A DNA stretch of 64,000 nucleotides. Source: Sulfurospirillum diekertiae (GTDB lineage: Bacteria > Campylobacterota > Campylobacteria > Campylobacterales > Sulfurospirillaceae). Under the pieces are notes generated by a model. That model saw only the letters and a list, made by a program, of their open reading frames with translations. It was not told the DNA's origin and did not search any database. Made by a program: the position numbers and the translations under genes. The stretch spans positions 1,178,001-1,242,000 of the forward strand of contig NZ_CP023275.1 in NCBI RefSeq assembly GCF_002309535.1, given 5' to 3'. This document shows positions 5,173 to 58,150 of this stretch, one piece after another (positions within the stretch are counted from its first letter, which is position 1; each line of letters begins with the position of its first letter).

Positions 5173-5527
5173 GGAGAAACCTTTGCATCCAAAGAGGCGG
5201 ATTGCTATTTTTTAATGTGAGTAGGGTGTTTAACAGGGTATCAATGCGCTCATTTTCTTTCTCAGACTTCAGTACAAAGATACCAGAGCCTTTCACCATT
5301 AAAGAAGCGCGCGGTCCAATATGTGAAGCGCACAAAATGTTAGCATCTTCTAAGCATTCAATTTTATAAGCTAGTTTATCGCCTTCTTCAGTGAGTTCAT
5401 TGGGTGATTCGAGTGCTCTTAAAAAAACAAACGACTCTTCTTGAAGCTCATAGAGATAAAAGCATTTGCACCAGCCAAAATGGTCATTGACATGGATGTT
5501 GTCCGTGGATGCAAATGCTATTTTCAT
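5144..5527 (-). CDS. NifX/NifB-type FeMo-cofactor-binding domain protein
   Basis: A 127-residue protein of the dinitrogenase iron-molybdenum cofactor family (NifX, NafY, C-terminal NifB). The fold start MKIAFASTDN, the loop NDHFGWCKCFYLYEL and the later ANILCASHIGPRA match the family. Members bind FeMo-co or NifB-co and move it between NifB, NifEN and apo-nitrogenase. It sits between a ferredoxin and the flavodiiron gene and lies opposite nifEN, which fits a role in cofactor traffic. It is a paralogue of the gene at 19961 but differs strongly in sequence; which of them does the classical NifX job cannot be decided here. Confidence 0.85.
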   Translation of the reverse strand: MKIAFASTDNIHVNDHFGWCKCFYLYELQEESFVFLRALESPNELTEEGDKLAYKIECLEDANILCASHIGPRASLMVKGSGIFVLKSEKENERIDTLLNTLLTLKNSNPPLWMQRFLHAPSPHNHS

Positions 5528-5530
5528 CGC

Positions 5531-5908
5531 TTATTCCGCTACTGGAGTGTGTGCTTGGCGATTAGCAATCGAGATCGCTTCACGGTAAGGTTTAGGAGAA
5601 ACTTCTGGGAACATGATGCCATTTTTCTTATGCTCACGAATGTTGTAGATGCCACTCTCATGACCTGCAACATAATAGGCATTGTATTCAGCAGTGTAGG
5701 GCATATCCCATACAATTGCACCTTCGGTTGGACAGGCATCTGCACATTTTGGCATCGTGCCATCAGAACATTCAATGCATTTTTCTGGTTTAACATAAGT
5801 GTTGTCACCATTGACCGGTGAGTCGCTTGCACTGACAATAGCGGTTGCGGGACACTCATCAATACAACTGTCACAGTTGATACAAAGTTCTGTAATTTTT
5901 ACTGCCAT
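5531..5908 (-). CDS. 2[4Fe-4S] ferredoxin, nif-associated
   Basis: The 125-residue protein has two cluster motifs: C9-x2-C12-x2-C15-x3-C19-P and C44-x2-C47-x7-C55-x3-C59-P. The longer spacing in the second motif is typical of the FdxN/FdxB-like ferredoxins found in nif clusters. A C-terminal extension of about 65 residues without further cysteines follows. It probably carries low-potential electrons to nitrogenase, cofactor assembly or the flavodiiron protein encoded two genes downstream. It is the first gene of the leftward operon, about 130 bases from a sigma-54 promoter, with an AAGGATTT ribosome site before the ATG. Confidence 0.92.
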   Translation of the reverse strand: MAVKITELCINCDSCIDECPATAIVSASDSPVNGDNTYVKPEKCIECSDGTMPKCADACPTEGAIVWDMPYTAEYNAYYVAGHESGIYNIREHKKNGIMFPEVSPKPYREAISIANRQAHTPVAE

Positions 5909-5964
5909 GGTAAATCCTTTTGATGGGAATGGATTAGTAACTCTAAAAAACCTTGCTTGAATGT

Positions 5965-6001
5965 ACCCACGATGTGAAAAGGGCTTGATCGCATCGTGGG
6001 T
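5965..6001 (-). promoter_or_regulatory. Leader hairpin of the ferredoxin-nifX-flavodiiron operon
   Basis: ACCCACGATG and CATCGTGGGT form a perfect 10-bp stem around a 17-base loop. It lies between the leftward sigma-54 promoter and the ferredoxin start, so it would be in the 5' untranslated RNA. On the minus strand no T-run follows directly (TTTTTT comes about 15 bases later), so it could be an attenuator, an RNA-stability element or a protein-binding site. Function is inferred. Confidence 0.5.
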
Positions 6002-6040
6002 GTTGAGTAAGGGTTTTTAAAGGTACACACCCCTTTTTAT

Positions 6041-6056
6041 GCAAGAGCTGTTCCGT
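6041..6056 (-). promoter_or_regulatory. Sigma-54 (-24/-12) promoter, leftward
   Basis: On the minus strand the sequence reads ACGGAACAGCTCTTGCAT, a GG-N10-GC match to the sigma-54 consensus. The GG is at 6054-6053 and the GC at 6042-6041. The ACGGAACA core is shared with the nifH, nifX and CheW-sensor promoters in this window. It faces the ferredoxin, NifX-like and flavodiiron genes. Confidence 0.85.
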
Positions 6057-6200
6057 TAAAGATTTTTTTTAAATACAACACGAAGTTTTTTTCTTTATGT
6101 GGTATTTTTTTGTTTAGAAACTGCATTAAGAGTTTTGTTTCAGGGCTACTGTAAAAAGGTGCAATGTAAAAACTCTAAATGGAATGGATTGTGCAAATCT

Positions 6201-7553
6201 ATGACTATGGTAAATAGAAAACTGATCAAGGATTTGTTAAACGAGAGTGCTTGTTCTCATAACAAAACCAAAAAAGCGAGCTGTGATAAACCGAAACCTG
6301 GAGCGACGAGCGGAGGGTGTGCGTTTGAGGGAGCGCAAATATCACTCTTTCCTTATGCGGATGCTGTGCATTTGGTGCATGGCCCCGACACTTGTCTTGG
6401 CGCTTCATGGGAAACCAGAGCAACGCTTACAAGCTATGAAGGTGAAAACAACACACCACTGGGCTATTGCACGAATGTCAGCACCCAAGACATCATTTTT
6501 GGTGGTGACAAAAAGCTTTCAGATGCTCTCTCTTACATCGTAGAGCATAAAAAACCTAAGGCGATTTTTGTCTATGAAACGTGTGTCACAGCGATGATCG
6601 GGGATAATATTGACTTTACATGTAAAACCGCAGAAGAGCTGTTTCACATTCCCATCGTGCCTGTGCACGCCCCTGGTTTTGTGGGCAGTAAAAACTTAGG
6701 ATCACGCCTTGCCGGTGAAGCGGTGTTGGACGCTCTTGTAGGTACGCGTGAGCCTGAAGAGATTCATCCTTTTGGCATTAACTTGATCGGTGATTATAAT
6801 GTGACGGGCGATATGTGGCAATATAAGCCTCTTTTGGAGCGTATTGGCATCAAAGTTGTTTCCTCTCTTTCAGGTGATGGCAGAATAGAGCAGATCCAAA
6901 CGGCGCATACGGCAAAGCTGAATGTCATCGTCTGTGCAAAGTCGTTGGTGACGTTGTGTCGTAAAATGCAAGAGCGCTACAATATCCCTTATGTGAGTGT
7001 CTCCTTTTATGGAAAGCGTGACACGTCCAATGCGATTCGCTCCATCGTCAATGCGTTTGGCGATGCGGAATTGATTGCAAAAGCGGAAACGATCATTGCT
7101 GAAGAAGAGGCGAAATTGGAAACGCGTTTGAAGCTGTACCATCCGATGCTCAAAGGTAAAAAAGCGATTTTAAACACAGGTGGAAATAAGTCATGGTCGA
7201 TCGCCTCAGCACTTCAAGACATTGGCATCGAAGTGGTCGCCACCTGTGTGCAAAAAGCTACGGAAGAGGATGTAGCGATAGCGAGTGAATATGTGCCTAT
7301 TTTATTTAAAGCACCCGGTGTCGATCAGCCTCGTTTGATTGATGAGCATAAAGTCGACATTTTACTTGCGGGTGGGCGTAGTCTTTACACGGCGATTAAA
7401 AAGCGCATTGCCTTTGTCGATGTCAATCAAGAGAAGAAAGTAAGTTACGGTGCATACGGTGGGCTTGAAAACCTCGCCATTGATGTCTGTGCTGCCCTTT
7501 CAAACCCTGTCTTTAAACTGGTTGGAAAACAAGCGCCGTGGGACGCGGCATAA
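6201..7553 (+). CDS. nifE: NifE, FeMo-cofactor assembly scaffold subunit
   Basis: NifE and NifN form the tetramer on which the NifB product is matured with Mo and homocitrate before transfer to NifDK. The 450-residue protein shows the NifE start pattern (LLNESACSHN, then KPGATSGGCAFEGAQ near 31-45), the HGPDTCLGASWETR segment and the GDYNVTGDMWQ region. ATG at 6201 is chosen because homology to NifE begins just after it; an open frame extends back to 6099 with no family resemblance. No strong ribosome site precedes 6201. It is 18 bases upstream of nifN. A palindrome copy at 6615-6626 encodes FTCK. Confidence 0.95.
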   Translation: MTMVNRKLIKDLLNESACSHNKTKKASCDKPKPGATSGGCAFEGAQISLFPYADAVHLVHGPDTCLGASWETRATLTSYEGENNTPLGYCTNVSTQDIIFGGDKKLSDALSYIVEHKKPKAIFVYETCVTAMIGDNIDFTCKTAEELFHIPIVPVHAPGFVGSKNLGSRLAGEAVLDALVGTREPEEIHPFGINLIGDYNVTGDMWQYKPLLERIGIKVVSSLSGDGRIEQIQTAHTAKLNVIVCAKSLVTLCRKMQERYNIPYVSVSFYGKRDTSNAIRSIVNAFGDAELIAKAETIIAEEEAKLETRLKLYHPMLKGKKAILNTGGNKSWSIASALQDIGIEVVATCVQKATEEDVAIASEYVPILFKAPGVDQPRLIDEHKVDILLAGGRSLYTAIKKRIAFVDVNQEKKVSYGAYGGLENLAIDVCAALSNPVFKLVGKQAPWDAA

Positions 7554-7571
7554 ATAAATGAGGAGGAAAAC

Positions 7572-8861
7572 ATGAGCTTTATTAACCCCAAAGAGATGAA
7601 AACAACCACGATGAAGCCTTTACATGTAAACCCTCTTAAGCTCTCACAACCGATGGGTGCGACACTTGCCTTTTTGGGCATTAAAAACTGTATGCCTCTG
7701 ATGCATGGGGCGCAAGGGTGTGCATCATTTACGAAAGTACTGTTTACACGACACTTTAACGACCCGATCGCCATTCAAACCACTGCTGTTAATGATATAA
7801 CCGCCGTCATTGATGGAGGCGATAAAGGCATCTCCGAAGCGGTGGAAAACATCACCAAAAAAGTAACGCCTGATTTGGTCGGACTTTTTACGACAGGCAT
7901 GACGGAAACCAAAGGCGATGATATTAAGGGTGCAACGCTTCTTTTAAAAGAGAAGCAAAAAATGGTGTATGTGCATACGCCCGATTTTGAAGGTGGGCTT
8001 GAGAGCGGTTGGAGCTTGAGTATCCAAAACATTATTACTCAGCTCATTGAGCCAACCACGCATGTTCGAAAAGATAAAGTCCTTTTTGTCCCCAATGTCA
8101 ACTTTAGTCCCATTGAAGTTGAAAAACTCAAAGAAGCGTTGGAACTTCTGGACTTGGAAGTCTATGCGCTTCCTGATCTTAGCGATTCCCTTGATGGTCA
8201 TCTCGGTGTCAAACAAGGTGCGCTCAGCAGTGGAGGTATTAGCGTTTCAGACATTGAAAAACTGGGTGATGCGGGTGCTGTCATCACCATAGGGCGTTCG
8301 GTTAAAAAATGCGGAGAACTTTTTTATGAAAAATTTCCACAAAGTACCCATCTGCATTTTGATAGCCTTATGGGCTTAGAAGCAAGTGATGAGTTTTATG
8401 CCAAACTGTTTGAATTCTTAGAGTGTAAAAGTGTGCCCAGTGTGGTCAAACGTTGGCGTGCTCGCTTGCAAGATGTGCTCTTAGATACGCATTTTACCTT
8501 GGGAAAAGCAAAAATTCTTATCGCCGATGAACCTGATAGTGCTTATGCCATCTCTAAAGCTTTAAAAGAAGCGGGTGGTTCGTGTGAGGCATATATTGCA
8601 CAACGCAGTGAGGTGCAAGAAGCCTTTACATGTAAAGTTTCCATTGGCGATTTGGAAGAGGTGGAAAAAGTCCTTCCTACTATGGATCTGCTCATTACCA
8701 ACTACCATGGTGAGCGTCTAGCCCATAAACACCACAAAGAACTGCTCATTCGAGGTTTCCCCAATTATGAGCAAGTCGGTATTGGACTACGCCATAACAT
8801 ATTATATGAAGGCAGTTGTGCTTTTTTATGCGAAGTAACCAATCTATTAGTCCATCATTAA
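7572..8861 (+). CDS. nifN: NifN, FeMo-cofactor assembly scaffold subunit
   Basis: The 429-residue protein is related to NifK but shorter. It keeps the N-terminal NPLKLSQPMGATLAFLG block, the HGAQGCASFTKVLFTRHF cluster region and the TTAVNDITAVIDGG segment typical of NifN. It pairs with NifE from the gene directly upstream, and an AGGAGG ribosome site stands before its ATG. Two palindrome copies lie inside it, at 7619-7630 (read LHVN) and 8625-8636 (read FTCK). A strong hairpin follows the stop, closing the nifEN transcript. Confidence 0.95.
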   Translation: MSFINPKEMKTTTMKPLHVNPLKLSQPMGATLAFLGIKNCMPLMHGAQGCASFTKVLFTRHFNDPIAIQTTAVNDITAVIDGGDKGISEAVENITKKVTPDLVGLFTTGMTETKGDDIKGATLLLKEKQKMVYVHTPDFEGGLESGWSLSIQNIITQLIEPTTHVRKDKVLFVPNVNFSPIEVEKLKEALELLDLEVYALPDLSDSLDGHLGVKQGALSSGGISVSDIEKLGDAGAVITIGRSVKKCGELFYEKFPQSTHLHFDSLMGLEASDEFYAKLFEFLECKSVPSVVKRWRARLQDVLLDTHFTLGKAKILIADEPDSAYAISKALKEAGGSCEAYIAQRSEVQEAFTCKVSIGDLEEVEKVLPTMDLLITNYHGERLAHKHHKELLIRGFPNYEQVGIGLRHNILYEGSCAFLCEVTNLLVHH

Positions 8862-8882
8862 CGAACTTCAATACTTTCAATA

Positions 8883-8899
8883 GGGCACATTTTGTGCCC
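8883..8899 (+). terminator. Terminator of nifEN
   Basis: GGGCACA-TTT-TGTGCCC is a perfect 7-bp stem with a 3-base loop, 21 bases after the nifN stop. A T-rich run (TTTCCTTTATCTTTTTTT) follows about 12 bases later. Confidence 0.7.
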
Positions 8900-8987
8900 A
8901 ACTCATAATTTCCTTTATCTTTTTTTACTCTATTAAACTTCTTTTCGCAATCAATTTAGAAGTAATTTGGAGTTTTTAATACCCTTT

Positions 8988-9068
8988 TTGATTCATATTG
9001 TGAAAGAATCAATACTTTTTTCGTCAAAAGCAATGATATTTCACATATCTCACATTAAATCTCACATT
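8988..9068 (+). promoter_or_regulatory. Candidate operator region of the fcc operon
   Basis: Upstream of the flavoprotein gene there is an inverted repeat (TTGATTC at 8988-8994, GAATCAA at 9006-9012) and three direct TCACAT units starting at 9041, 9050 and 9062; the last two extend to TCTCACATT with 12-base spacing. Tandem repeats of this kind suit a winged-helix response regulator, and one is encoded at 13426. No clear -35/-10 pair was found. The 263-base gap holds no gene. Confidence 0.4.
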
Positions 9069-9124
9069 TAGTTATTAAAATTAAGTTAGAAATAAAAAAC
9101 ACTATTTCAAAAAGGAGTAATACA

Positions 9125-10705
9125 ATGAGTAAAGAGACGATGTCAAGAAGAGACGCTCTAAAGTTGGGCGTAGTTGGGGCAGGTGCAGCCATGTTAAGTG
9201 CAGCCAATGCAATGGCAGCAGCACCAACTGAAAAAGATGTCAAATTTGATGAAGAGTACGATGTTATCATCATTGGTTCTGGCTTTGCGGGTCTCGCAGC
9301 AGCAGCTAAATCAGCAGAACGTGGTTATAAAGTATTGATTCTTGAAAAAATGGGTCGTGTTGGTGGTAATTCAGCTATTAATGGTGGTGCGTTTGCCGTT
9401 CCAATGAATAGAGATCAAAAACAATTTGGTATTGAAGATTCTAAAGCGCTTTTTATTAAAGATGCTTTAAAAGCAGGACTTGGTATTAACCACGTAGAAA
9501 TGCTGGAGCTAATTGCAGATCGAGCGCAAGAGACATTTGACTTTGCCGTAAAATGTGGTGCAAAATTCCAAACAGGTAAAAAACCAACATGGTTTGGTGG
9601 TCATTCAGTGCCTAGAACTATTGTTACTGAAAATATGAGTGGCTCAGGCATTATTCAACCAATGGCAGCATTTGTCGAAAAACTTCCCGGTTGTAAAATG
9701 GTAACACGCGCAAAAATGGATGATTTTGTGATGAGTAATGATGGTACAACGGTTATCGGTGTAACTGCGCGTATTAATTACCGTTTTGATAATAAACTTC
9801 ACAATGATGACATTGAAAACAAGACAGGTGAGAAAAAAGCTTATCGCGCTAAAAAAGGTGTTGTTTTAGCAAGTGGAGGTTTTTCTATGGATAGAGACTT
9901 TAGACAACTTCAAGACCCACGTATGACACCCGATATGGATGCAACAAACCATGATGGTGCAACGGCTGGAGCACTTTTAAAAGCTTTCCAAATTGGAGCA
10001 CTTCCTGTACATATTAGTTGGATTCAAGAAGGACCATGGGCAAGTCCAGATGAGAGAGGTTTTGGTGTAGCACCACTCTTAACACAACAAGGTTTATTCA
10101 AATTTGGTGTTGCAGTTGATGTTAGAAATGGTAAACGATTCATGAATGAGATGGCTGATCGTAAAACACGAGCGGATGCTGAGTATGTTATCTTAAGGGA
10201 AGCGCCAAAAATGTATCCGGTAGCCATTGGTACGTACAATACATTTGAAGAGCAAATTTATGCAGCGATCGATAAAGGTCTACAAGGTGGCGTTATGAAG
10301 AAATTCGATACGCTTGACGCTCTTGCTGCAAACTATAAAATTCCAGCAGATGCACTTAAGGCAACGATTAAAAAATATAATGAAGATGTCAAAAATAGTG
10401 TTGAGGATGAGTTTAAAAAACCAACACTTAAAGGTGACTCTCTGAAAGAACTTAAAGGTGGTGATCCTATCGATATGAAAGGACCATTTTACGCAATTCG
10501 TTTATGTCCAAAACCTCACCATACAATGGGTGGCTTAAAAATTAATACAAAAGCTCAAGTCATTTCAGCCAATACGAACAAACCGATTCCAGGTTTCTTT
10601 GCAGCAGGCGAAGTAACGGGAGGGACACACGGTGCAAGTCGTCTAGGTAGCTGTGCAATTGCTGACTGCTTAGTATGTGGTATGGTAGCAGGAGAAAATA
10701 TATAA
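9125..10705 (+). CDS. Periplasmic flavoprotein reductase, flavocytochrome c family (FccA-like)
   Basis: The 526-residue protein begins with a twin-arginine signal (SRRDALKLG at 7-15, cleavage near AMAAA), then an FAD-binding motif GSGFAGLAAA from 51 and the fumarate reductase/urocanate reductase-type flavoprotein domain. H465 or H466 in HHTMGG and R506 in SRLGSC match catalytic positions of the family. Where fumarate reductases carry an HPT motif, this protein reads QEGPW (301-305), so the substrate may be another unsaturated acid. There is no haem motif in this chain; the haems are on the next gene's product, as in Wolinella fccABC. Substrate is unknown. Confidence 0.87.
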   Translation: MSKETMSRRDALKLGVVGAGAAMLSAANAMAAAPTEKDVKFDEEYDVIIIGSGFAGLAAAAKSAERGYKVLILEKMGRVGGNSAINGGAFAVPMNRDQKQFGIEDSKALFIKDALKAGLGINHVEMLELIADRAQETFDFAVKCGAKFQTGKKPTWFGGHSVPRTIVTENMSGSGIIQPMAAFVEKLPGCKMVTRAKMDDFVMSNDGTTVIGVTARINYRFDNKLHNDDIENKTGEKKAYRAKKGVVLASGGFSMDRDFRQLQDPRMTPDMDATNHDGATAGALLKAFQIGALPVHISWIQEGPWASPDERGFGVAPLLTQQGLFKFGVAVDVRNGKRFMNEMADRKTRADAEYVILREAPKMYPVAIGTYNTFEEQIYAAIDKGLQGGVMKKFDTLDALAANYKIPADALKATIKKYNEDVKNSVEDEFKKPTLKGDSLKELKGGDPIDMKGPFYAIRLCPKPHHTMGGLKINTKAQVISANTNKPIPGFFAAGEVTGGTHGASRLGSCAIADCLVCGMVAGENI

Positions 10706-19960: not shown

Positions 19961-20317
19961 ATGGTCAAGGTAGCGTTTTTTACAAACGATCTCAAAAACA
20001 TTGATGCCCATTTTGGTTCAGGAGAGCAATTTGCCGTGTACGACGTAGGTGCTGAGGGTTTTTCACTCTCTAGCGTTGTTCAAACAGGTGAAGAGCGAAC
20101 GGAAGGCAGAGTCGAGATGTTACAACATGAGAACATTGACATTATGTACTGCATCGAAATTGGACCTGCAGCGGCTGCCAAAGTCGTCAACGGTAAAATC
20201 TTCCCTATCAAATACAAAGAAGTAGTGAGCATTGAAACAGAGCTGAATAAACTTCAAACCATGATAGCAACGAATCCTCCACCGTTTATCAAAAAAATCT
20301 TAGAAGCGAGAGGATAA
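19961..20317 (+). CDS. nifX: NifX, FeMo-cofactor carrier
   Basis: The 118-residue protein is a single dinitrogenase iron-molybdenum cofactor-binding domain (VKVAFFTNDL start, IDAHFGSGEQFAVYDV loop, MYCIEIGPAAAAKV). NifX binds NifB-co and the VK cluster and transfers them within FeMo-co synthesis. It is the first gene of an operon behind a sigma-54-like promoter and is followed by the DUF269 gene, its usual partner in nif clusters. A GGAGG ribosome site lies upstream. Confidence 0.9.
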   Translation: MVKVAFFTNDLKNIDAHFGSGEQFAVYDVGAEGFSLSSVVQTGEERTEGRVEMLQHENIDIMYCIEIGPAAAAKVVNGKIFPIKYKEVVSIETELNKLQTMIATNPPPFIKKILEARG

Positions 20318-20321
20318 GGCT

Positions 20322-20753
20322 ATGAATGAACTTGAAAAGTTGTTCATAGAGACTCTAACGTCTCAGATGAGAGCACTTGACCAATTTGGTACTTGGGCAA
20401 AAAAAAGCGATGAAGAAGTTTTGAGTGAAAAATATATTAAGAGTAAAGATGCACTGAAAAATATTCCTATTATTGCGGATATTGATGAGATGCAAATCCA
20501 AGATATTCGTCTGATTTTCCAGTCAATAGCTTTAGCTTTTGAGCTTAAAACAAACATTATGTGTTCTGTAGTCATGGAAATGAGCCACGAAGGATTCGGG
20601 CGTGCGGTTGTTATAGCTGAAAAAATTGTTGTTACCAATAAGTTTTTCAAAGATGCCCATCGTTACAGTTTTAGAACGTATGAAGATCTCGTTAAAGAAG
20701 GTGGCAAAATGTTAAAAGATGCTATCGAAATTTACGAAACCTATAAAAAATAA
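20322..20753 (+). CDS. NifX-associated protein (DUF269)
   Basis: The 143-residue protein matches the nif-specific DUF269 family: the opening LTSQMRALDQFGTWAKKSDEE, the IPIIADIDEMQIQDIR block, MSHEGFGRAVVIAEKIVV and the HRYSFRTYEDLVKEGGK end all follow the family pattern. Its biochemical role is not established, but it accompanies nifX in many diazotrophs. It begins 5 bases after the nifX stop. Confidence 0.9.
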   Translation: MNELEKLFIETLTSQMRALDQFGTWAKKSDEEVLSEKYIKSKDALKNIPIIADIDEMQIQDIRLIFQSIALAFELKTNIMCSVVMEMSHEGFGRAVVIAEKIVVTNKFFKDAHRYSFRTYEDLVKEGGKMLKDAIEIYETYKK

Positions 20754-20765
20754 TCAGGATAGAAC

Positions 20766-21281
20766 ATGGCAAAGGTTGGTATATTTTACGCAAGTGCGGG
20801 CGGTAATACAACATTGGTAGCGGAGGCTTTAAAAGAAGCCTATGAGCTTGAAGATGATGATTGTATTTTAATGGAAGATGATTTTGACAGTGTTGAGCAA
20901 TTTGACAATTATGATGCACTTTTTATTGGTTCTTCAACATGGGGTCAAGGCGATGTGCATTTTAGTTGGGTTGATCCACTCTTTGAAATCACTTCTGAAA
21001 ACATTAGTTTTACAGGTAAAAAAGTTGCATTTTTTGGTGCAGGTGATAGCAAAACACATGGTGAACATTTTTGTTCAGCTCTTGGCAAATTCAATCAAAT
21101 CTTTACCAAAGCAGGAGCAAATGTCATCGGTTTTGTTGACAAAGAAGCGTATACCTATACAGCATCTTTAGCTGAAGTTGGCGATAAACTCTGTGGTTTA
21201 GCGATTGATAATATTAACGAAGAAGATAAAACAAGTGAACGTATTGAAAATTGGATAGAACAGTTAAAAGGCGAATTATAA
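20766..21281 (+). CDS. nifF: Flavodoxin, nitrogenase electron donor (NifF-like)
   Basis: The 171-residue protein is a long-chain flavodoxin. It has the FMN phosphate loop near 8-14 (YASAGGNT), the first isoalloxazine loop SSTWGQGD (about 58-65) and the second GAGDSKTHGEHF (about 97-108). It is an acidic one-electron carrier for NifH or other ferredoxin-dependent enzymes. Membership of the nif operon, 13 bases after the DUF269 gene, supports a nitrogenase role. A palindrome copy lies 15 bases after the stop (21296-21307). Confidence 0.9.
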   Translation: MAKVGIFYASAGGNTTLVAEALKEAYELEDDDCILMEDDFDSVEQFDNYDALFIGSSTWGQGDVHFSWVDPLFEITSENISFTGKKVAFFGAGDSKTHGEHFCSALGKFNQIFTKAGANVIGFVDKEAYTYTASLAEVGDKLCGLAIDNINEEDKTSERIENWIEQLKGEL

Positions 21282-21369
21282 AAGCGTGAATAAGCTTTAC
21301 ATGTAAACATGAGATCAAGCTTTTTGTTTTGTGTTAAGGCATCTATAAAAATAGTGAAAAGGATAAAAA

Positions 21370-21702
21370 ATGAAAACGTTGGATCAATATTACAAACTAA
21401 AAGATGCAGAAGATTTTTTTGAGTTTTTTGGTGTTGAGTACGATAAGCACATCGTTGAAGTCAAGCGTTTTCATATTATGAAAGAGTATGGAACCCTTAT
21501 TAAAAAAGGGTTTGAGAATTTTAATGGTAATGAAAAATACCTGATGGATTTTCTAAAATTTGCTTTGATCCGTGTTTATATGGATTACAAACATGGACAT
21601 GCTCCTAGTGCGGCCGAAGTCTGGGGAATGTTGGAAGACGGCAAAGCCAAAGGGTGTTTAGCATGTGCTATATCATCGGAAGGAGGAAACTGTGCCTGCT
21701 AA
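21370..21702 (+). CDS. nifW: NifW-like nitrogenase-protective protein with Cys-rich tail
   Basis: The first two-thirds of the 110-residue protein match NifW (DAEDFFEFFGVEYDKHIVEVKRFHIMKEYG). NifW binds NifDK and supports its maturation or O2 tolerance. The C-terminal tail is unusual: GCLACAISSEGGNCAC contains four cysteines (CxxC and CxC) that could bind metal. The stop overlaps the nifZ GTG by 11 bases. The NifW call is good; the tail's role is unknown. Confidence 0.8.
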   Translation: MKTLDQYYKLKDAEDFFEFFGVEYDKHIVEVKRFHIMKEYGTLIKKGFENFNGNEKYLMDFLKFALIRVYMDYKHGHAPSAAEVWGMLEDGKAKGCLACAISSEGGNCAC

Positions 21703-22057
21703 TGATGAAATTGTTTTGCATGATAGTGTGACCGCAAAACTTTCGGGGAAAGATGAGCCAAAAGCGAAATTTTTTCTGGGGCAAAAAGTACAACTTTTGG
21801 AAGATGTTAAGAATGATGGAACCTATCCTTATCTTAAAATCGGTGAGGTGATGATTAAAAAAGGCTCAGTGGGGTACATTCGTACTATTGGTGAGTTTTT
21901 GCAAGTCATTCGTGTGTACGAAGTTCATTTTTTAGATGCAGAGGCGGTTGTTGAGGTCATTGGATGTCGGGAACATGAGCTTGAAGCACTTGAACCTTAT
22001 CGTGATCTTGAAGCCGAAGAAGTTGAATGGATGATGAATCACTATAACCAAAGTTAA
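21692..22057 (+). CDS. nifZ: NifZ, nitrogenase P-cluster maturation protein
   Basis: The protein matches NifZ: KFFLGQKVQLLEDVKNDGTYP, then GSVGYIRTIGEFLQ, YEVHFLDAE and the closing GCREHELEAL. NifZ acts as a chaperone in forming the second P-cluster of NifDK. GTG at 21692 is chosen because AGGAGG (21681-21686) stands 5 bases before it; an open frame reaches back to 21665 without a ribosome site. It overlaps the nifW stop by 11 bases. Confidence 0.85.
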   Translation: MPANDEIVLHDSVTAKLSGKDEPKAKFFLGQKVQLLEDVKNDGTYPYLKIGEVMIKKGSVGYIRTIGEFLQVIRVYEVHFLDAEAVVEVIGCREHELEALEPYRDLEAEEVEWMMNHYNQS

Positions 22058-22125
22058 ACATAAGAGTCATAAAAAAAGTTCTGAAAGAAAACGAATAAAA
22101 CAAATCTTAGTAAGGAGGAAAAGTC

Positions 22126-22464
22126 ATGGCGAAAGTAATCTTTATGCATTTTGATAAAGAAAAAGATGGTATCTACGATGCCAAAATAGGCGAACCAGTG
22201 GTGCGTTTAGCAAAAGAGAAGGGGATTCCTATCACTTTTGATCCTAAAGACCATTCAACATGTTTGATAAATGTTGAGAATATTAGCGAAGAAGAGCCTA
22301 CCAGTTACATGGAAGACGAAGAGCTTGATGAGCTTGTAAAACTTGGCGCTATTAGCCAAGAAGATGCTGATATTTGCCAACAGTTCACAGTTAGCCCAAA
22401 AGTGCGCATCGCTTCAATGATGATGATCAAGGGCGATGTTTTAATTAAACCATTTAAAAAGTAA
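22126..22464 (+). CDS. Ferredoxin-like protein lacking cluster cysteines
   Basis: The 112-residue protein has the length and block order of a plant-type [2Fe-2S] ferredoxin (EPVVRLAKEKGIPITFD, then a late RIASMMMIKGDVLIKPF). The four cluster cysteines are absent: only two Cys remain (in DHSTCLINVE and DADICQQF), neither in a CxxxxCxxC pattern. It lies 10 bases before a canonical [2Fe-2S] ferredoxin gene. An AGGAGG ribosome site shows it is well expressed with the nif operon. The fold relation is inference; a regulatory or docking role is possible. Confidence 0.6.
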   Translation: MAKVIFMHFDKEKDGIYDAKIGEPVVRLAKEKGIPITFDPKDHSTCLINVENISEEEPTSYMEDEELDELVKLGAISQEDADICQQFTVSPKVRIASMMMIKGDVLIKPFKK

Positions 22465-22969: not shown

Positions 22970-24196
22970 ATGAGAAGTATCAACCTAGAATTCAAACAAA
23001 AGCAGAGTCTAAACCTCTCTTTAAAACTTTGGCTCCCACTGTTACAGCTTCCTCTTCAAGAGTTAAGTACGCACCTTGAAACATTGTCGTACGAAAACCC
23101 TTTTTTAGAGGTTAAGCGCCCCTTTGAACAAAACCTAGGTTCTAGCCATGGTATCGTCGAAGAGTTGGTACTGGGTAGCGAGTCTTTGCATGAAAAAATC
23201 ATTGAGCAGATTGTACCACCCCTTTTCCCAACACCTATTTCTCAAAAAGTCGCCCATGAAATATTGTGTGACATTACCGATGAGGGCTATTTTGATGGCG
23301 ATATGGAAAAAATTGCACAGACGTGTGGTGTGTATACAGAATATGTTGAGCGTATTCGTCAGCGTTTTTCCAAACTTGAGCCATATGGTGTTGGTGCACT
23401 AGATAGCAAAGAGTCGTTTGTTTTTCAATTAGATGCTCTCAGCGATGACATTGACGATGAACTATATAATCTAGTTCTCAAGATGATCGATCAGATGGCC
23501 AAGGTCGATAAATTTTCAAGGCATGGGCGTTTTGAAGAAGCCAAAGCGGTCATTAAAAAATTTGCGAATCCTCCCGCTTTAGAGTATCAATCAACACCTA
23601 AACAGATTATTCCCGATTTTTTTGTTGAAGTTGATGATGATATTAAACTACGTATCAACAACGACTATTATCCTGATATTCTCATCACCGACCCGTTTTC
23701 AAGTAAGAGTGAGAACATCAAAGAGAAGCTCAAAGAGGCACGTGACATCGTCAATCTTTTGGAACTTCGCAAAACAACGCTTTATAAGATCGTTCTTTTA
23801 GTGGTAGAGAGGCAGCTCTCTTTCTTTGTCGGTGGCGAATTAAAACCACTCAATATGAGTACACTTGCCGATGAGCTCTCGTTTGCAGAGTCCACCATCT
23901 CACGAGCCATCTCAAATAAATACATTGAGTCTAAGCAGGGAATTTTTCCACTTAAATCGTTCTTTACCAATGCGGTCTCATCCAAAGAGCTTTCATCTTC
24001 GGAAATAAAGAATTTTATCAATCAACTGATAGAATACGAAGATAAAAGTGAGCCGCTCACCGATGATGATTTATTGGAGCGCATTGAAAAACGTTTTAAC
24101 ATTAAGATGGTGAGACGCACCATCACCAAATACCGCAAATTGATGAACGTAGCATCATCGAAAGAGCGCAAGAAAATCTATAAGGTACAAGCATGA
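22970..24196 (+). CDS. rpoN: RNA polymerase sigma-54 factor
   Basis: The 408-residue protein has region I (Leu/Gln-rich, SLNLSLKLWLPLLQLPLQEL), the NPFLEV activator-contact end, a core-binding domain, the helix-turn-helix (FAESTISRAISNKY) and the RpoN box VRRTITKYR at 381-389. The usual box is ARRTVAKYR, so three box positions are changed. It directs transcription from -24/-12 promoters with an AAA+ activator such as NifA. Its stop overlaps the nifQ-like start (ATGA), tying it to nitrogen fixation. Whether a second rpoN for flagellar genes exists elsewhere cannot be seen. Confidence 0.93.
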   Translation: MRSINLEFKQKQSLNLSLKLWLPLLQLPLQELSTHLETLSYENPFLEVKRPFEQNLGSSHGIVEELVLGSESLHEKIIEQIVPPLFPTPISQKVAHEILCDITDEGYFDGDMEKIAQTCGVYTEYVERIRQRFSKLEPYGVGALDSKESFVFQLDALSDDIDDELYNLVLKMIDQMAKVDKFSRHGRFEEAKAVIKKFANPPALEYQSTPKQIIPDFFVEVDDDIKLRINNDYYPDILITDPFSSKSENIKEKLKEARDIVNLLELRKTTLYKIVLLVVERQLSFFVGGELKPLNMSTLADELSFAESTISRAISNKYIESKQGIFPLKSFFTNAVSSKELSSSEIKNFINQLIEYEDKSEPLTDDDLLERIEKRFNIKMVRRTITKYRKLMNVASSKERKKIYKVQA

Positions 24197-51016: not shown

Positions 51017-51140
51017 CTTTTCTCCTTTTCCATATTATATAGCGATTGATTATACCCCACTCTTCACCTTTGAACATTGACATTTTACATGTAAATATTT
51101 CGCTTTATATTTTTTATTTTTTTCAAAAGTATTTTTCTAC

Positions 51141-51154
51141 GGAACACTATATGC
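51141..51154 (+). promoter_or_regulatory. Sigma-54 promoter of nifH
   Basis: CTACGGAACACTATATGCAAAAG gives GG (51141-51142), N10, GC (51153-51154), 41 bases before the nifH start. A palindrome copy lies 46 bases further upstream. No clear NifA upstream activator sequence (TGT-N10-ACA) was identified by eye. Confidence 0.9.
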
Positions 51155-51174
51155 AAAAGTGTGTGGTGAAATAA

Positions 51175-52107
<933 letters not shown>

Positions 52108-52145
52108 TAACCGAAGAAAACTTTAGCGCCCCAGTGGCAAATGTA

Positions 52146-52170
52146 GTCAAAAGAGCTTTGCCCTTTTGAC
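52146..52170 (+). promoter_or_regulatory. Intercistronic hairpin after nifH
   Basis: GTCAAAAG and CTTTTGAC form an 8-bp stem with a 9-base loop in the 93-base gap between nifH and the next gene. No T-run follows. Such hairpins often stabilise nifH mRNA so that NifH exceeds NifDK; that role is inference here. Confidence 0.55.
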
Positions 52171-52200
52171 GTTATAAAAAAATAAAAAGAGGAGCACACC

Positions 52201-52560
52201 ATGTTTATATGCGGATACCACTTCCCAGCATCTTTGGGAAATAAAATTAGTCATGAGCAAGTCGTAGAGAGAGTCACAGCAGAAGTTGGCGATCTTTCAG
52301 ATGTTAGTTACGCAGTCCTTACCAGTGAAAACCGTGATGGTATCAAACAAGAAGACCTACGTGTTGAAAAAGGTTCATTCCTTTTCACAGCATTGGCTGA
52401 TTACTATAAAAAATCAGACATTGAAGGCGAATATAAAATGATTTTTTATACCAACAAGTATCAAATGAGTGAAGTTTCTAAAGCAGTCGATGGTGGTAAA
52501 ACAGCAGACGTTTGTAAAAAACTTGACGATATGCTTCTCTACAGGGTCAAAGTCGCGTAA
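52201..52560 (+). CDS. Unrecognised 119-residue protein between nifH and nifD
   Basis: I do not recognise this protein. It is not a GlnB-type NifI regulator (no matching fold blocks) and not the delta subunit of V/Fe nitrogenases by any motif I can see. It is soluble and acidic, with Cys only at about 5 and 105; the N-terminus reads MFICGYHFPASLGNK. A GAGGAG ribosome site and short gaps (93 bases before it, 30 after it) place it in the nifHDK operon, so it is probably made with nitrogenase. Possible roles are subunit protection, assembly or regulation. Confidence 0.85.
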   Translation: MFICGYHFPASLGNKISHEQVVERVTAEVGDLSDVSYAVLTSENRDGIKQEDLRVEKGSFLFTALADYYKKSDIEGEYKMIFYTNKYQMSEVSKAVDGGKTADVCKKLDDMLLYRVKVA

Positions 52561-52590: not shown

Positions 52591-54045
52591 ATGACAACAG
52601 AAACATTGCTAAGCCAACAAGAAGCCGCAATTGCGGAAGTGCTTGCTGCTTACCCTGAAAAGGCGAAAAAAAGTAGAGAAAAACACCTTGGCGTTGATAT
52701 GCCAGAGGGTGTTAAAGGTGCTTGTGATTCAACCAAGAGTAACAAACAAACCGTTCCAGGCGTTATGAGTCAACGTGGTTGTGCTTATGCAGGAAGTAAA
52801 GGTGTTGTTTGGGGTCCAGTGAAAGATATGATTCATATCTCTCATGGACCGGTTGGTTGTGGTCAATATAGCCGCGCAGGTAGAAGAAACTATTACATTG
52901 GTACAACAGGCGTTGATACCTATGTAACGATGAACTTCACAACCGACTATAATGAAAAAGACATCGTTTTTGGTGGCGATAAAAAGCTTAAAGCGGCACT
53001 TGCAGAAATTGATGCACTTTTCCCACTCAATAACGGTATTTCCATTCAAAGTGAATGCCCCATCGGTTTGATTGGTGATGATATTCAAGCAGTAGCCAAA
53101 GGCTACAAAAAAGAGTCTGGCAAGCCTACGGTTGCGGTTTCTTGTGAAGGTTTCCGTGGTGTTTCACAAAGTTTGGGTCACCATATTGCGAACGATATGA
53201 TTCGTGATGAGGTACTTCCAGATAACTCTTATAAAAAAGATTTTGTATCAACTCCGTATGATGTTGCCATCATCGGTGACTATAACATCGGAGGGGACGC
53301 TTGGAGTTCAAGAATTTTACTTGAAGAGATGGGTCTTCGTGTTATCGCTCAATGGAGTGGTGATGCTACTTATAAAGAGTTAACGATCGCTCCAAAAGCG
53401 AAAATAAACCTTCTTCACTGCTACCGAAGTATGAACTATGTTGTTCGTCATATGGAGCAAGAATTTGGCGTGCCTTGGATGGAGTATAACTTCTTTGGTC
53501 CAAGCAAAACAACAGAGAGCTTACGCAAAATTGCAGCGTTCTTTGATGAGACAATTCAAGCTAAAACAGAAGCGGTTATCGCTAAATATACTGAAATGAC
53601 TGATAAAGTCATTGCAAAGTATCGCCCTAAATTAGAAGGCAAAACCGTCATGTTATATGTCGGTGGATTACGTCCTCGCCACGTTATTGGTGCTTACGAA
53701 GATTTGGGAATGAAAATTATCGGTACAGGTTATGAGTTCGGACATGGTGATGACTATAAACGTACCAAAGATGAGCTTAGTGGCTCAACCTTGATCTATG
53801 ACGATACCAACGAGTACGAATTAGAGCAATTTGTCAAAAGACTGAAACCTGATCTTGTAGCAAGCGGTGTAAAAGAGAAGTACGTTTTCCAAAAAATGGG
53901 TTTACCATTTAGACAAATGCACTCTTGGGATTATAGTGGTCCGTATCATGGATACGATGCCTTTGCAATTTTTGCAAAAGACATGGATTTGGCGTTGAAC
54001 TCCCCAGTATGGGCTCACACCAAAGCACCATGGGAATCTAAATAA
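52591..54045 (+). CDS. nifD: NifD, nitrogenase MoFe protein alpha subunit
   Basis: The 484-residue protein carries the P-cluster cysteines C64, C90 and C156 and the FeMo-co ligands C277 ([11 protein letters not shown]) and H453 (PYHGYDAF). The [17 protein letters not shown] and [12 protein letters not shown] blocks are typical. The sequence SISL-type V/Fe signatures and a delta-subunit gene are absent, so it is Mo-type. It is 10 bases before nifK. It binds the active-site cofactor and reduces N2. Confidence 0.97.
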
Positions 54046-54055
54046 GGAGAGCACA

Positions 54056-55606
54056 ATGCAAGACGTAGAGAACATAGTAAATGGGCAAAAGCTCTTTTTA
54101 AAACCAGAGTATCAAGATGTTTTTAAAAATAAAAAGCAATTTGAAAGCAGTGCAGGTTCAACCAACCCTGAAAAAGTAATCGAAGTTGCTAAGTGGACAA
54201 CAACATGGGAATACCGTGAGAAAAACTTAGCACGTGAGCACATCACGATTAACCCAGCCAAAGCGTGTCAACCTTTAGGTGCTGTTATGGCAGCACTTGG
54301 GTTTGAAAACACCATGCCGTATGTTCATGGAAGTCACGGTTGTGTGGCTTACTTTAGAAGCTACTTTACACGTCACTTTAAAGAGCCAACACCATGTGTT
54401 TCAGACTCTATGAGTGAAAGTGCAGCGGTTTTTGGTGGTTTGGCAAATATGAAAGAGGGTTTACGTAACTGTAAAGCACTTTACAAACCAGACATGATTG
54501 CTGTTTCTACTACATGTATGGCAGAAGTTATTGGTGATGACTTGAATGCGTTTGTGATCGGTGCTCGTAAAGATGCTGAGGGTGAACTAGATGGTACGCC
54601 AATTCCAGCTGCACACACCCCATCATTTGCAGGTAGCCACGTGACGGGTTATGACAATATGATGAACGCCATTTTGCAAGAGCTCAATCCTGTTGAGGGT
54701 CGTGAGATCGTTAAAGATGAAGAGCGTATCAACATCATTCCTGGTTTTGAACCATACCTTGGAAGCTTGAAAGAAATTAAGAAAATGGCTGCTATGTTTA
54801 GCGACAAAATCGTTATGCTTGGTGACCATGAAGATCAGTGGAATACCCCAGCAGGTGAGTATAAACTCTATGCAGGTGGTACACCTTTAGCGGTTGCAAA
54901 AACAGCAAGCAGCGCAAAAGCGACTATTTCACTTCAAAAGTATTCTACAATCGCCACGGCGAAGATGATTAAAAATGACTGGAAACAAACGTATGCAACC
55001 TGCAACCCAATCGGGTTAGGTGGAACAGATGAGTTTGTAATGAAACTCAGTGAACTTACAGGAAAACCTGTTCCTGCTGAGCTTACAAAACTTCGTGGTC
55101 AACTTGTTGATGCGATGCAAGACAGTTATCCGTATATGCACGGCAAAAAATTCGCCATCTGGGGAGATCCTGACTTCTTGTTAGGTGTTGTTTCTTTCTT
55201 GGTTGAAATGGGTGCTATTCCTGTACACGTTCTTTGCCATAATGCGCCTCGTAAAAACTGGGAAAAAGAGATGCAAGCGATTCTTGACAAATGTACCTTC
55301 AAAGAAGAGTGTCACATTTGGATGGGAAAAGACTTATGGCATTTAAGAAGCCTTATTTTTACGGAGCCAGTAGATTTCATGATTGGTAACGTTTACGGTA
55401 AAGAGTTGTATCGTGATACAAAAGTACCATTGATTCGTATCGGTTTCCCAATCTTCGATAGACATCATCTCCATAGATACTCTATCAGTGGATATGAGGG
55501 TGCGCTTAATCTTTTAACATGGATTACCAACTCCGTCCTAGACGCGTTGGATGAAGAGACAAAAGATATCGCAAAAACAGATTTCTTCTTCGACTGCGTA
55601 AGATAG
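54056..55606 (+). CDS. nifK: NifK, nitrogenase MoFe protein beta subunit
   Basis: The 516-residue protein has the beta-subunit P-cluster cysteines C71, C96 and C154 (NPAKACQPLGA, HGSHGCVAYFR, STTCMAEVIGDD) and the DSMSESAAVFGG block. Together with NifD it forms the alpha2-beta2 MoFe protein. A terminator hairpin follows 12 bases after the stop, so the operon ends here. Confidence 0.97.
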   Translation: MQDVENIVNGQKLFLKPEYQDVFKNKKQFESSAGSTNPEKVIEVAKWTTTWEYREKNLAREHITINPAKACQPLGAVMAALGFENTMPYVHGSHGCVAYFRSYFTRHFKEPTPCVSDSMSESAAVFGGLANMKEGLRNCKALYKPDMIAVSTTCMAEVIGDDLNAFVIGARKDAEGELDGTPIPAAHTPSFAGSHVTGYDNMMNAILQELNPVEGREIVKDEERINIIPGFEPYLGSLKEIKKMAAMFSDKIVMLGDHEDQWNTPAGEYKLYAGGTPLAVAKTASSAKATISLQKYSTIATAKMIKNDWKQTYATCNPIGLGGTDEFVMKLSELTGKPVPAELTKLRGQLVDAMQDSYPYMHGKKFAIWGDPDFLLGVVSFLVEMGAIPVHVLCHNAPRKNWEKEMQAILDKCTFKEECHIWMGKDLWHLRSLIFTEPVDFMIGNVYGKELYRDTKVPLIRIGFPIFDRHHLHRYSISGYEGALNLLTWITNSVLDALDEETKDIAKTDFFFDCVR

Positions 55607-55617
55607 TTTGTTAAGTT

Positions 55618-55643
55618 GAGGGCTTCGGCTCTCTTCTTTTTTA
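55618..55643 (+). terminator. Terminator of nifHDK
   Basis: GAGGGC-TTCG-GCTCTC (one G-T pair) with a UUCG loop, followed by TTCTTTTTTATTTT. The same stem-loop type ends the gene at 57806. Confidence 0.88.
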
Positions 55644-56009
55644 TTTTCCGCCTTTACCATTTCCACTATTTCCTCCTTTTCCACTTCCATTGCATGCACC
55701 AGCAGAAGAGCTGGAACTATTACTATTTGAGCTTCTTCCTGTAAGCGTATTGATTTGTTGCGTTTGAATATCTTCACTTTTTTCAGCACTTAGCTCAGAC
55801 ATCAGTTGCTCTCGTTTGGCTTCATTTTCAACTCTAGCACGTTCTTTAATCGCTTGAATATAGCGGTGTCGGTATTGTCTTGGCGCAGAGTGCATTTGGG
55901 TAGTGAGTTCATCCATGTTTTGGGTCTTTTGTATCTCTTGGGTAATGTCATTATCATCAAGAGCATAAAGCTGTAATGTCAGCAGACAGAAAATCATGGT
56001 GTATTTCAT
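55641..56009 (-). CDS. Secreted small protein with Ser/Gly/Asn-rich tail
   Basis: The 122-residue protein has a signal peptide (about 1-16), a helical charged middle part (RQYRHRYIQAIKERARVENEAKREQLMSEL region) and a low-complexity tail of Ser, Gly, Asn and Lys. Its start overlaps the kinase stop (ATGA), so it belongs to the two-component operon. It resembles the product of 57806 in layout, though not in detailed sequence. A role as a periplasmic partner of the kinase, as CpxP is for CpxA, is a guess. Confidence 0.7.
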   Translation of the reverse strand: MKYTMIFCLLTLQLYALDDNDITQEIQKTQNMDELTTQMHSAPRQYRHRYIQAIKERARVENEAKREQLMSELSAEKSEDIQTQQINTLTGRSSNSNSSSSSAGACNGSGKGGNSGNGKGGK

Positions 56010-57055
56010 GCTTTTTCCTCTTTAGAAAAAAGAAGTGTGATCGATGTTCCTGTCTCTGCATTACTTTCAAGAGTAATTTGAATGACTAAAATATCGCACA
56101 ATTTTTTTACGATATTCAAACCTAACCCCAGCCCTTTTTCGTTCTCTTTATAGTATCGATCGTAAACAAGGCGACAGTTTTTAATACCAATACCTGTATC
56201 ACTGATGTTTACACGGTTCTCTTTATTACTCAGTTTTACGGAACCATTTTTGCGGTTGTATTTACAGGCATTGGAGATGAGATTGTCAAATATACGTGCG
56301 ATCGAATCAGGATCGCTATGAATGATGCAAGGTTCTGTTTCAAAAATAAAGGTCAATTTTGGGTAGAGCTTTTGATAGAGTTTGGCTCTTACATGTAAAA
56401 GTTTTTCAAGATCAACTTCGCCTTTTTTGGGGATAAATCCTTGGTGCAAGATTTCTAAATTTCGGTACAAAGAGGCGATAGTTTTTGCAGCGAGTTCTAT
56501 ACGCTCTAAGGCTTCCGATGGTGCTGTTTTGGCAATGGATTTTGTATTGAGAAGTATGGAGGTTACAGGTGTGTTAAGGTCGTGAATCATATCTTTCAAG
56601 AAACTTTCTAACAGGTAAAGTGCATGTCTGAGTGGATAGAGTGCATAAAACGAATAAAAAAGTGAGAAGGCGATGATGGCACATAAGAGAGCACTATAGA
56701 TTAGAAGAACTTTGTTGATAAGAAGATGGAGTTGTCCCTTATACTCCTTGTCAGACATGATTACTTTGAACATAGAATTTTTCGTGCTTGGAATTGCAAA
56801 ATAACCACACATTCCACGATCGCAAGGCTGTAAATTGAGCTCATCGACACTGTTATCATAAGGAATGACATCGACTTCAAAGGTATAATTTTGAAAATCA
56901 TAGGTAAACGATTTCATTTTCGTGAAAATCTGCTCTTCCATGATGTGTTTTTGTTCACTGTAATAAAAATAGGCAACCAGAGTGGTAAGAAGCATTAATG
57001 TGGCAAAGAAAATACCAAATGTTTTAAAAAAAGCCTCTTTCTCATATTTTCTCAA
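56006..57055 (-). CDS. Two-component sensor histidine kinase
   Basis: The 349-residue protein has two membrane helices (about 10-32 and 110-140) around a small periplasmic domain of about 80 residues that includes a Cys pair (QPCDRGMCGY), a HisKA region with phospho-acceptor His in DMIHDLNTPVTS, and ATPase motifs ISNACKYN, DTGIGI and GLGLGLNIVKKL. The Cys pair may bind metal or respond to redox. Its start overlaps the regulator gene by 14 bases. A palindrome variant at 56388-56399 encodes LHVR. Confidence 0.9.
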   Translation of the reverse strand: MRKYEKEAFFKTFGIFFATLMLLTTLVAYFYYSEQKHIMEEQIFTKMKSFTYDFQNYTFEVDVIPYDNSVDELNLQPCDRGMCGYFAIPSTKNSMFKVIMSDKEYKGQLHLLINKVLLIYSALLCAIIAFSLFYSFYALYPLRHALYLLESFLKDMIHDLNTPVTSILLNTKSIAKTAPSEALERIELAAKTIASLYRNLEILHQGFIPKKGEVDLEKLLHVRAKLYQKLYPKLTFIFETEPCIIHSDPDSIARIFDNLISNACKYNRKNGSVKLSNKENRVNISDTGIGIKNCRLVYDRYYKENEKGLGLGLNIVKKLCDILVIQITLESNAETGTSITLLFSKEEKA

Positions 57056-57677
57056 GACGGTATCCTATGCCTTTGACATTGATAACTTGAAGGGAAAAAC
57101 GCTGTTTGAGTTTGGTTATATGTACACGCAAGGCACTATCGCTGGATTTTTCCATCACGTCAAAAAACTGCTCTTTAAGAATGGTTTGATTTAGATTTCG
57201 TAGGAGTAGATCAAAGATTTCTTTCTCAACAGAGCCAAGATCAATCTCTTTCTCGTTTTGAAAAAGGCGCTTATTCAAAAGATCGTAGGTGATTGAACCA
57301 TACGCTAAAAGGGGATTTTTTTTCAGAATATGCGCTTTAATGCGCACTAAAAGCTCATCAAACTCAAAAGGTTTTTTGATGTAGTCATCACACGCGCTGT
57401 CAAACGCTTTGGTGATGGTTTGAATGTCTTTATAGGCACTGATAAAAAAAGCGGGAGTAGCATCGCCACTTTCACGTAGAAGTTTAAGCAGATCAAGACC
57501 GTTGAGGAGGGGAACGTTGATGTCAAAGAGATAAAGATCAAACGAGGTTTCATACGAATAGGTGAGTGCTTCTTCGCCATCACTGGCATGTACCACTTCA
57601 AAACCTTCACCCATCAGCAGACTTTTGAGGGTCTCACTTAAAAGGTAGTCATCTTCAAGTAATAAGATTTTTGGCAT
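57042..57677 (-). CDS. Two-component response regulator, OmpR/PhoB type
   Basis: The protein of 211 residues (from ATG 57677) has a receiver domain with acidic residues in LLEDDYLL, phospho-acceptor Asp in YLFDINVP, Lys in IKKPFEFDE, and a winged-helix domain ending in VKGIGYRLEKI. ATG 57677 is chosen for the AAGGAGA site and because the receiver begins there; a longer frame to 57782 is unlikely. It pairs with the overlapping kinase gene downstream. Confidence 0.9.
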   Translation of the reverse strand: MPKILLLEDDYLLSETLKSLLMGEGFEVVHASDGEEALTYSYETSFDLYLFDINVPLLNGLDLLKLLRESGDATPAFFISAYKDIQTITKAFDSACDDYIKKPFEFDELLVRIKAHILKKNPLLAYGSITYDLLNKRLFQNEKEIDLGSVEKEIFDLLLRNLNQTILKEQFFDVMEKSSDSALRVHITKLKQRFSLQVINVKGIGYRLEKI

Positions 57678-57710
57678 GGTTTTCTCCTTAGGTAAAGAAT
57701 AGCAAATATC

Positions 57711-57777
57711 TGTTAATGAAGTGTTAAAGTAAAAAAAATTTGTCCTTAACAGTTTGCTAACACTTTCTCCGTATAGT
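57711..57777. promoter_or_regulatory. Divergent operator between regulator and Gly-rich protein genes
   Basis: TGTTAA-TGAAG-TGTTAAAG (57711-57729) is a direct repeat of TGTTAA at 11-base spacing. TTAACA-GTTTG-CTAACAC (57746-57763) is the same pair facing the other way. Such tandem half sites suit OmpR-type dimers and would let the regulator act on both divergent genes. TATAGT (57772-57777) is a likely -10 for the plus-strand gene. Confidence 0.6.
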
Positions 57778-57805
57778 TTCAATATATATCAACAAGGAGG
57801 CAAAG

Positions 57806-58150
57806 ATGAAAAAGAGTCTATTTGTGTGGATGGTTTTAGGTGTCGTTGCATTTGCGGCAGACTATTCAGCCATGAGTGCAACAGAGCTAAGTGCTATGAG
57901 AGGAACGGTTCCTGTCGAAGATAGACCCGCTTTTCAAGCGGCAATGCAAGAAAAAATGCAAACGATGAGTCAAGAAGAGCGTCAAGCTTTCACGCAAGCT
58001 CGCACTTCCAATCCAACAACAGGCAATATGGGGGCAAGTACAGGCGGTACGAATGGCAGTGGTAGCGCTAGTGGTTCAGGTATGGGCAATGGTGGTATGG
58101 GAATGGGTGGCATGGGTAATGGAAAAGGCGGTGGTCGAGGAGGGCGATAA
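57806..58150 (+). CDS. Secreted DUF1104-like protein with Gly-rich tail
   Basis: The 114-residue protein has a signal peptide (about 1-18), a helical DUF1104-type part (MSATELSAMRGTVPVEDRPAFQAAMQEKMQTMSQEER) and a tail of Gly, Asn, Met and Ser repeats. It is divergent from the two-component operon and lies next to shared operator-like repeats, so it is a likely target. Function is unknown; a periplasmic stress or metal-related role is speculation. A terminator follows. Confidence 0.75.
   Translation: MKKSLFVWMVLGVVAFAADYSAMSATELSAMRGTVPVEDRPAFQAAMQEKMQTMSQEERQAFTQARTSNPTTGNMGASTGGTNGSGSASGSGMGNGGMGMGGMGNGKGGGRGGR

Follow-up and report, generated by a model that had tools for sequence, protein, structure and literature searches.

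Which role might be filled by a gene of no recognised family that lies between nifH and nifD, inside the structural operon of nitrogenase? The question arises from a stretch of 64,000 nucleotides (the window) of the complete 2.81-Mb genome of Sulfurospirillum diekertiae, a member of the Campylobacterota, in which a gene for a 119-residue protein (52201-52560, plus strand, ATG start, TAA stop; below, the orf) is set between nifH, for a 303-residue Fe protein scoring over the TIGR01287 cut-off (51196-52107, plus), and nifD (52591-54045, plus) and nifK (54056-55606, plus), for the 484-residue alpha and 516-residue beta chains of the MoFe protein. A first-pass annotation, drawn from the letters of the DNA, had flagged the orf as an unrecognised gene at this place, and its coordinates, start and neighbours are confirmed here. 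A literature search, which reached few subscription papers, found no mention of it, and a 2026 survey of nitrogen-fixation genes limited itself, by its own statement, to genes already recognised (PMC12903952). The evidence below suggests that the orf is an overlooked nitrogenase helper or regulator. In our preferred reading, to which we give a probability of about 0.5, it would be a nitrogenase-dedicated accessory protein that acts post-translationally on nitrogenase, more likely by regulating or protecting the enzyme than by assembling it.

The gene and its operon

The orf is a real gene under purifying selection, not a chance open reading frame. Homologues occur in 73 of 397 Campylobacterota genomes, nearly all aligned over their full length and with identities down to about 34%, and each of these genomes, like that of the host, carries a single copy. 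Values of dN/dS against congeners are 0.02-0.12 (nifH, 0.02-0.06; nifD, 0.01-0.06), and over eight loci the two other frames of the same strand contain 55 and 117 stops. The strong ribosome site remarked upon at first pass is borne out: a Shine-Dalgarno AGGAG (52190-52194, plus) stands 6 nt 5' of the ATG, and a site of this GGAG/AGGA type is kept in 93 of 94 loci (some duplicates among them), the exception being a decayed operon. The predicted product is acidic, with a mass of 13.5 kDa and a pI of 5.4.

Upstream of nifH, a GG-N10-GC motif marks a putative sigma-54 (-24/-12) promoter of the nifH-orf-nifD-nifK operon (CGGAACACTATATGCA; 51140-51155, plus), and rpoN lies in the same window (22970-24196). 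In 47 of 74 loci such a site precedes nifH by 51-62 nt (0.8% of shuffles), while the nifH-orf gaps of all 74 loci hold one site and the orf-nifD gaps none. Judged by these motifs, the orf would be part of a nifHDK transcript that starts at a sigma-54-type promoter, and a strong ribosome site of its own would direct its translation. The gaps that flank it are unequal, 93 nt after nifH and 30 nt before nifD in the window, with medians over loci of 97 and 30 nt. The longer one contains a perfect 8-bp hairpin, GTCAAAAG..CTTTTGAC (52146-52170, plus), a possible mRNA-processing or attenuation element that is present in only part of the genus. At this and several other loci (window 52108-52189; L002, L005, L006, L008, L010, L028, L031, L036) the gap is occupied by an insert of about 90 nt that bears a hairpin and belongs to one of two unrelated kinds, the central hairpin of the insert occurring once in the window; in the remaining members of the genus the gap is only about 25 nt. 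The earlier proposal that the orf is expressed at nitrogenase level thus finds indirect support in the shared sigma-54-type motif and strong Shine-Dalgarno sequence, but the hairpin and the 93-nt gap after nifH qualify it: with the hairpin in front of it and nifD close behind, the orf may be expressed at the level of NifDK rather than that of NifH.

Immediately beyond nifK (window 55641-58150) lies a two-component system on the minus strand (sensor, 56006-57055; regulator, 57042-57782), with a gene for a small protein ending in a glycine-rich tail on either side of it (55641-56009, minus; 57806-58150, plus). Other nif genes form two blocks 30-45 kb from nifHDK (window 6099-8861 and 19961-22464): nifE and nifN, and then nifX, genes for a NifX-associated protein and a flavodoxin, and a nifW homologue, followed by rpoN. 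Two more genes beside nifX and nifW, probably nifZ and one for a ferredoxin-like protein, had no NCBIfam match and were assigned by eye.

Elsewhere in the host genome a second locus (L104; G000:C1:1541000-1556000) encodes an Fe-only nitrogenase, with AnfD scoring 1032 bits and AnfG and AnfK over cut-off; in the coordinates of that locus, anfD (8561-10129), anfG (8173-8697) and anfK (6765-8159) are on the minus strand, as are genes for a NifA/AnfA-like (4532-6070) and a NifE-like (3170-4510) protein. No AnfH was found in the host genome, where the NifH of the nif operon is the sole NifH-type protein, and therefore one Fe protein must serve both the Mo and the Fe-only enzymes. Five further genomes of the genus combine an AnfD-like match with a single NifH. 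A NifH shared by two enzymes makes a NifH helper conceivable, and with the orf directly 3' of nifH in the same operon, its product could be imagined to take part in the folding, Fe-S insertion or docking of the Fe protein. Yet the orf is equally found in genomes without an AnfD-like match, it is nearer to nifD, and in part of the genus the hairpin-bearing inserts separate it from nifH, and we regard such a NifH partner as improbable.

Linkage to nitrogenase and exchange of alleles

The first-pass annotation left to be settled whether the orf is strictly linked to nifH and nifD or has homologues away from nif genes. Within the Campylobacterota the linkage is strict: nifD and nifH matches are each found in 75 of the 397 genomes, all 73 genomes with the orf carry both, and every orf locus that was read has the order nifH-orf-nifD. 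No homologue was detected away from nif genes in the 397 genomes of the phylum, in 72,556 plasmid records (247 of them bearing nifD) or in viral contigs. A scan of genome contigs with one sequence as query, and so limited to close relatives, gave 25 nif loci; in each of them the order is nifH-orf-nifD and NifH is Campylobacterota-like. As controls among plasmids, nifH and nifD are adjacent in Pseudanabaena, and Nitratidesulfovibrio has the order nifH-NifI1-NifI2-nifD.

Four nif-positive genomes deviate. In two the contig ends early, 50 bp upstream of nifD (G389) or inside nifH (G367). A third (G223; L073, 3832-7341) has a decayed nif operon, with a broken, stop-bearing nifH, incomplete nifD and nifK genes and an orf that has lost its ribosome site. 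The fourth (G007; L077) lacks the orf and has a different, anaerobe-type nitrogenase, whose NifH and NifD are about 60% and 39% identical, in an operon nifH-NifI1-NifI2-nifD-nifK-nifE (7904-9463) that is not of the usual cluster-I type. In this operon, the only one of anaerobe type found in the phylum, NifI1 and NifI2, named by eye from sequence, occupy the exact slot of the orf. This genome is a natural control, in which the other type of enzyme has NifI in the place that the orf holds beside the cluster-I-type enzyme. Bound to nif and absent without it, the orf is linked as a dedicated accessory gene would be, and we hold with high confidence that it is dedicated to nitrogenase. The suggestion of a lineage-specific nitrogenase accessory protein is accordingly upheld as to linkage, its accessory function being inferred, and needs amending as to the lineage, which is not one genus but the whole phylum (all cluster-I-type nif operons examined). 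Experiments have shown nitrogen fixation in two members of the phylum, both of them species of Sulfurimonas (PMC12029903). Epsilonproteobacterial nitrogenases share a cluster with those of Gammaproteobacteria, one that also takes in the Deferribacterales, and the nitrogenases of Deferribacterota, Aquificota and sulfur-oxidising Gammaproteobacteria group with them or nearby (PMC8399215), so that homologues of the orf in those groups are possible.

The orf proteins fall into two subfamilies that are about 40% identical to each other. Type I proteins begin MFxCGYHFPA and are 50-100% identical to that of the window; type II proteins (25 of 75 sequences) mostly begin MFILGFHFPADMGN, lack Cys4 and are 33-45% identical to it. 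The same 25-member clade, with support of 1.0, appears in the trees of the orf and of NifD, distances in the two proteins are correlated (r = 0.92), and one genus (g12) holds both types. The subtype of the orf therefore follows that of the nitrogenase, not the genus, and the matching split, together with the mixed genus, implies that the orf was carried along in transfers of the nifHDK operon between lineages.

On a finer scale the orf has its own history. In three pairs of loci (L004/L011, L010/L036 and L017/L086) it differs by about 25% while NifH and NifD are 97-99% identical; for L004 and L011 the identical residues amount to 99.3% in NifH, 74.8% in the orf and 99.2% in NifD, and for L017 and L086 to 97.4%, 74.4% and 98.1%. 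Between L004 and L011 the synonymous difference (pS) reaches 0.52 in the orf, compared with 0.26 in nifH and nifD, and nucleotide identity, 68-75% inside the orf, leaps to 99% where nifD begins; the raised synonymous difference and the abrupt jump point to recombination rather than fast local evolution. The orf has thus been repeatedly replaced as an allele within near-identical nitrogenase backgrounds, from which it follows that one nitrogenase tolerates different alleles. Either drift helped by the conserved flanks or diversifying selection may lie behind the exchange, and we prefer neither. Such replacement, with its doubled pS, might also be expected of a neutral or selfish passenger lodged between two conserved genes and swapped by recombination in its flanks. 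A neutral gene, however, would be lost or turn up elsewhere, whereas every intact operon keeps the orf across deep divergence, its motifs invariant, its Shine-Dalgarno sequence conserved and its dN/dS well below 1, and we give the passenger explanation very little credence.

Known families and predicted structure

Scans against Pfam, NCBIfam, PHROGs and PADLOC and a sequence search of the PDB gave scattered weak matches to unrelated families, inconsistent across members, none of them above a curated cut-off where one was given. The earlier judgement that the protein matches neither NifI nor a nitrogenase delta subunit holds good, no known nif family having emerged among the profiles compared. 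Near-invariant residues are concentrated in the N-terminus (1-14, MFxxGxHFPAxxGN), in a helix (83-97, YTNxYQxxExSKxxD) and at 105-111, where C105, D109 and M111 are conserved; no metal-binding motif was seen in the orf, and among its cysteines only C105 is near-invariant. AlphaFold, given 65 sequences, confidently predicts an alpha/beta protein of order b-a-b-b-a-b-a-a-b (pLDDT 95, pTM 0.89). A fold search with this model found neither a PDB nor a viral entry with E below 1e-3. The top PDB match, the N-terminal domain of DapD (3r5a; E 8e-3, 14% identity), had a TM-score of 0.45 over 90 columns, where a shared fold would call for a value clearly above 0.5, and is too faint for a safe assignment; any resemblance would be of fold only, the orf has no acyltransferase domain, and a functional link to DapD is unlikely. 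A model in which the orf was joined to NifD by reading through its stop codon, built on a shallow alignment of 25 sequences, had pLDDT 57 and pTM 0.46, with NifD unfolded.

The small proteins of known nitrogenase systems were compared in turn. NifI1 and NifI2 resemble the orf in size, in belonging to a nif operon and in their slot between nifH and nifD (L077, L097), but they are two genes of the PII family and the orf is a single non-PII gene: neither sequence, profile nor PII fold matched, and alignment with hhalign to NifI1 of L077 and NifI2 of L097 gave a probability of 0.2%. CowN, a CO-protection protein that binds the MoFe protein (PMC8047169), is likewise small, acidic, nif-dedicated and without a metal site, and its post-translational protection offers a possible parallel (PMC8047169); its predicted structure, however, is a four-helix bundle, the modelled orf is alpha/beta with no PF20543 match, and the host has a true CowN gene elsewhere (G000:C1:724008-724301), which is present in most sampled genomes of the genus, unlinked to nifHDK. 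The delta subunits AnfG and VnfG are also small proteins encoded within a structural operon beside the D subunit, but show no profile similarity to the orf (TIGR02929/TIGR02930); AnfG belongs to the separate anf operon, and Mo-nitrogenases have no delta subunit (PMC5328986). NifW, NifX, NifZ and NifT share with the orf the character of small nif accessory proteins; profile comparison, made for NifW and NifX, was negative, and both are separate genes in the window. With NifW, NifX, CowN and AnfG all encoded elsewhere, their jobs are therefore taken. A search of 41 relatives for DraT, run without a positive control, detected none.

A candidate role in regulating or protecting nitrogenase

NafY, NifT and NifZ exemplify a known kind of protein, the helper in NifDK assembly, and the orf product might be another, a chaperone that holds apo-NifDK or aids insertion of the P-cluster or FeMo-cofactor and, encoded beside nifD, meets nascent NifD. 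Its median distance of 30 nt from nifD, its alpha/beta fold without a metal motif and its universal presence in the cluster-I-type operons of the phylum, as an essential step would predict, are in keeping with such a maturation factor. Against it, nifE, nifN, nifX, the nifW homologue and the probable nifZ assigned by eye already lie elsewhere, other cluster-I nitrogenases mature without the orf protein, and, to our knowledge, most genes for assembly helpers sit elsewhere than between nifH and nifD. We consider assembly a possible but rather unlikely function.

Our first choice is regulation or protection, since the operon has no NifI and the orf stands in its place; position between nifH and nifD is by itself insufficient to establish a regulatory role, and we advance this one tentatively, leaning modestly towards tuning or protection of the assembled enzyme over help in assembly. 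In outline, the orf protein would work only with the cluster-I molybdenum nitrogenase of Campylobacterota and would act after translation by binding a nitrogenase component. Its gene being nearer to nifD than to nifH hints at NifDK as the most likely partner. Direct binding to one component or another seems fairly probable and would involve the most conserved regions of the protein, namely the motif at its N-terminus, the helix at 83-97 and its C-terminal end, although recurrent exchange of alleles against constant NifH and NifD argues against a broad co-adapted interface. Once bound, the protein may tune or protect nitrogenase in its assembled state, in the manner of NifI1/NifI2 or CowN. A bolder version, which we put forward as speculative and doubtful, would make the orf a non-PII post-translational regulator or protector that replaces NifI1-NifI2 throughout the Campylobacterota, its alleles having diversified and passed from strain to strain.

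Across a whole phylum, diazotrophs retain an unnamed gene inside the structural operon of nitrogenase. Small accessory proteins determine whether nitrogenase functions in a given host, which bears on efforts to move nitrogen fixation into new organisms, and the orf may explain how the enzyme is controlled or protected without NifI in Campylobacterota.
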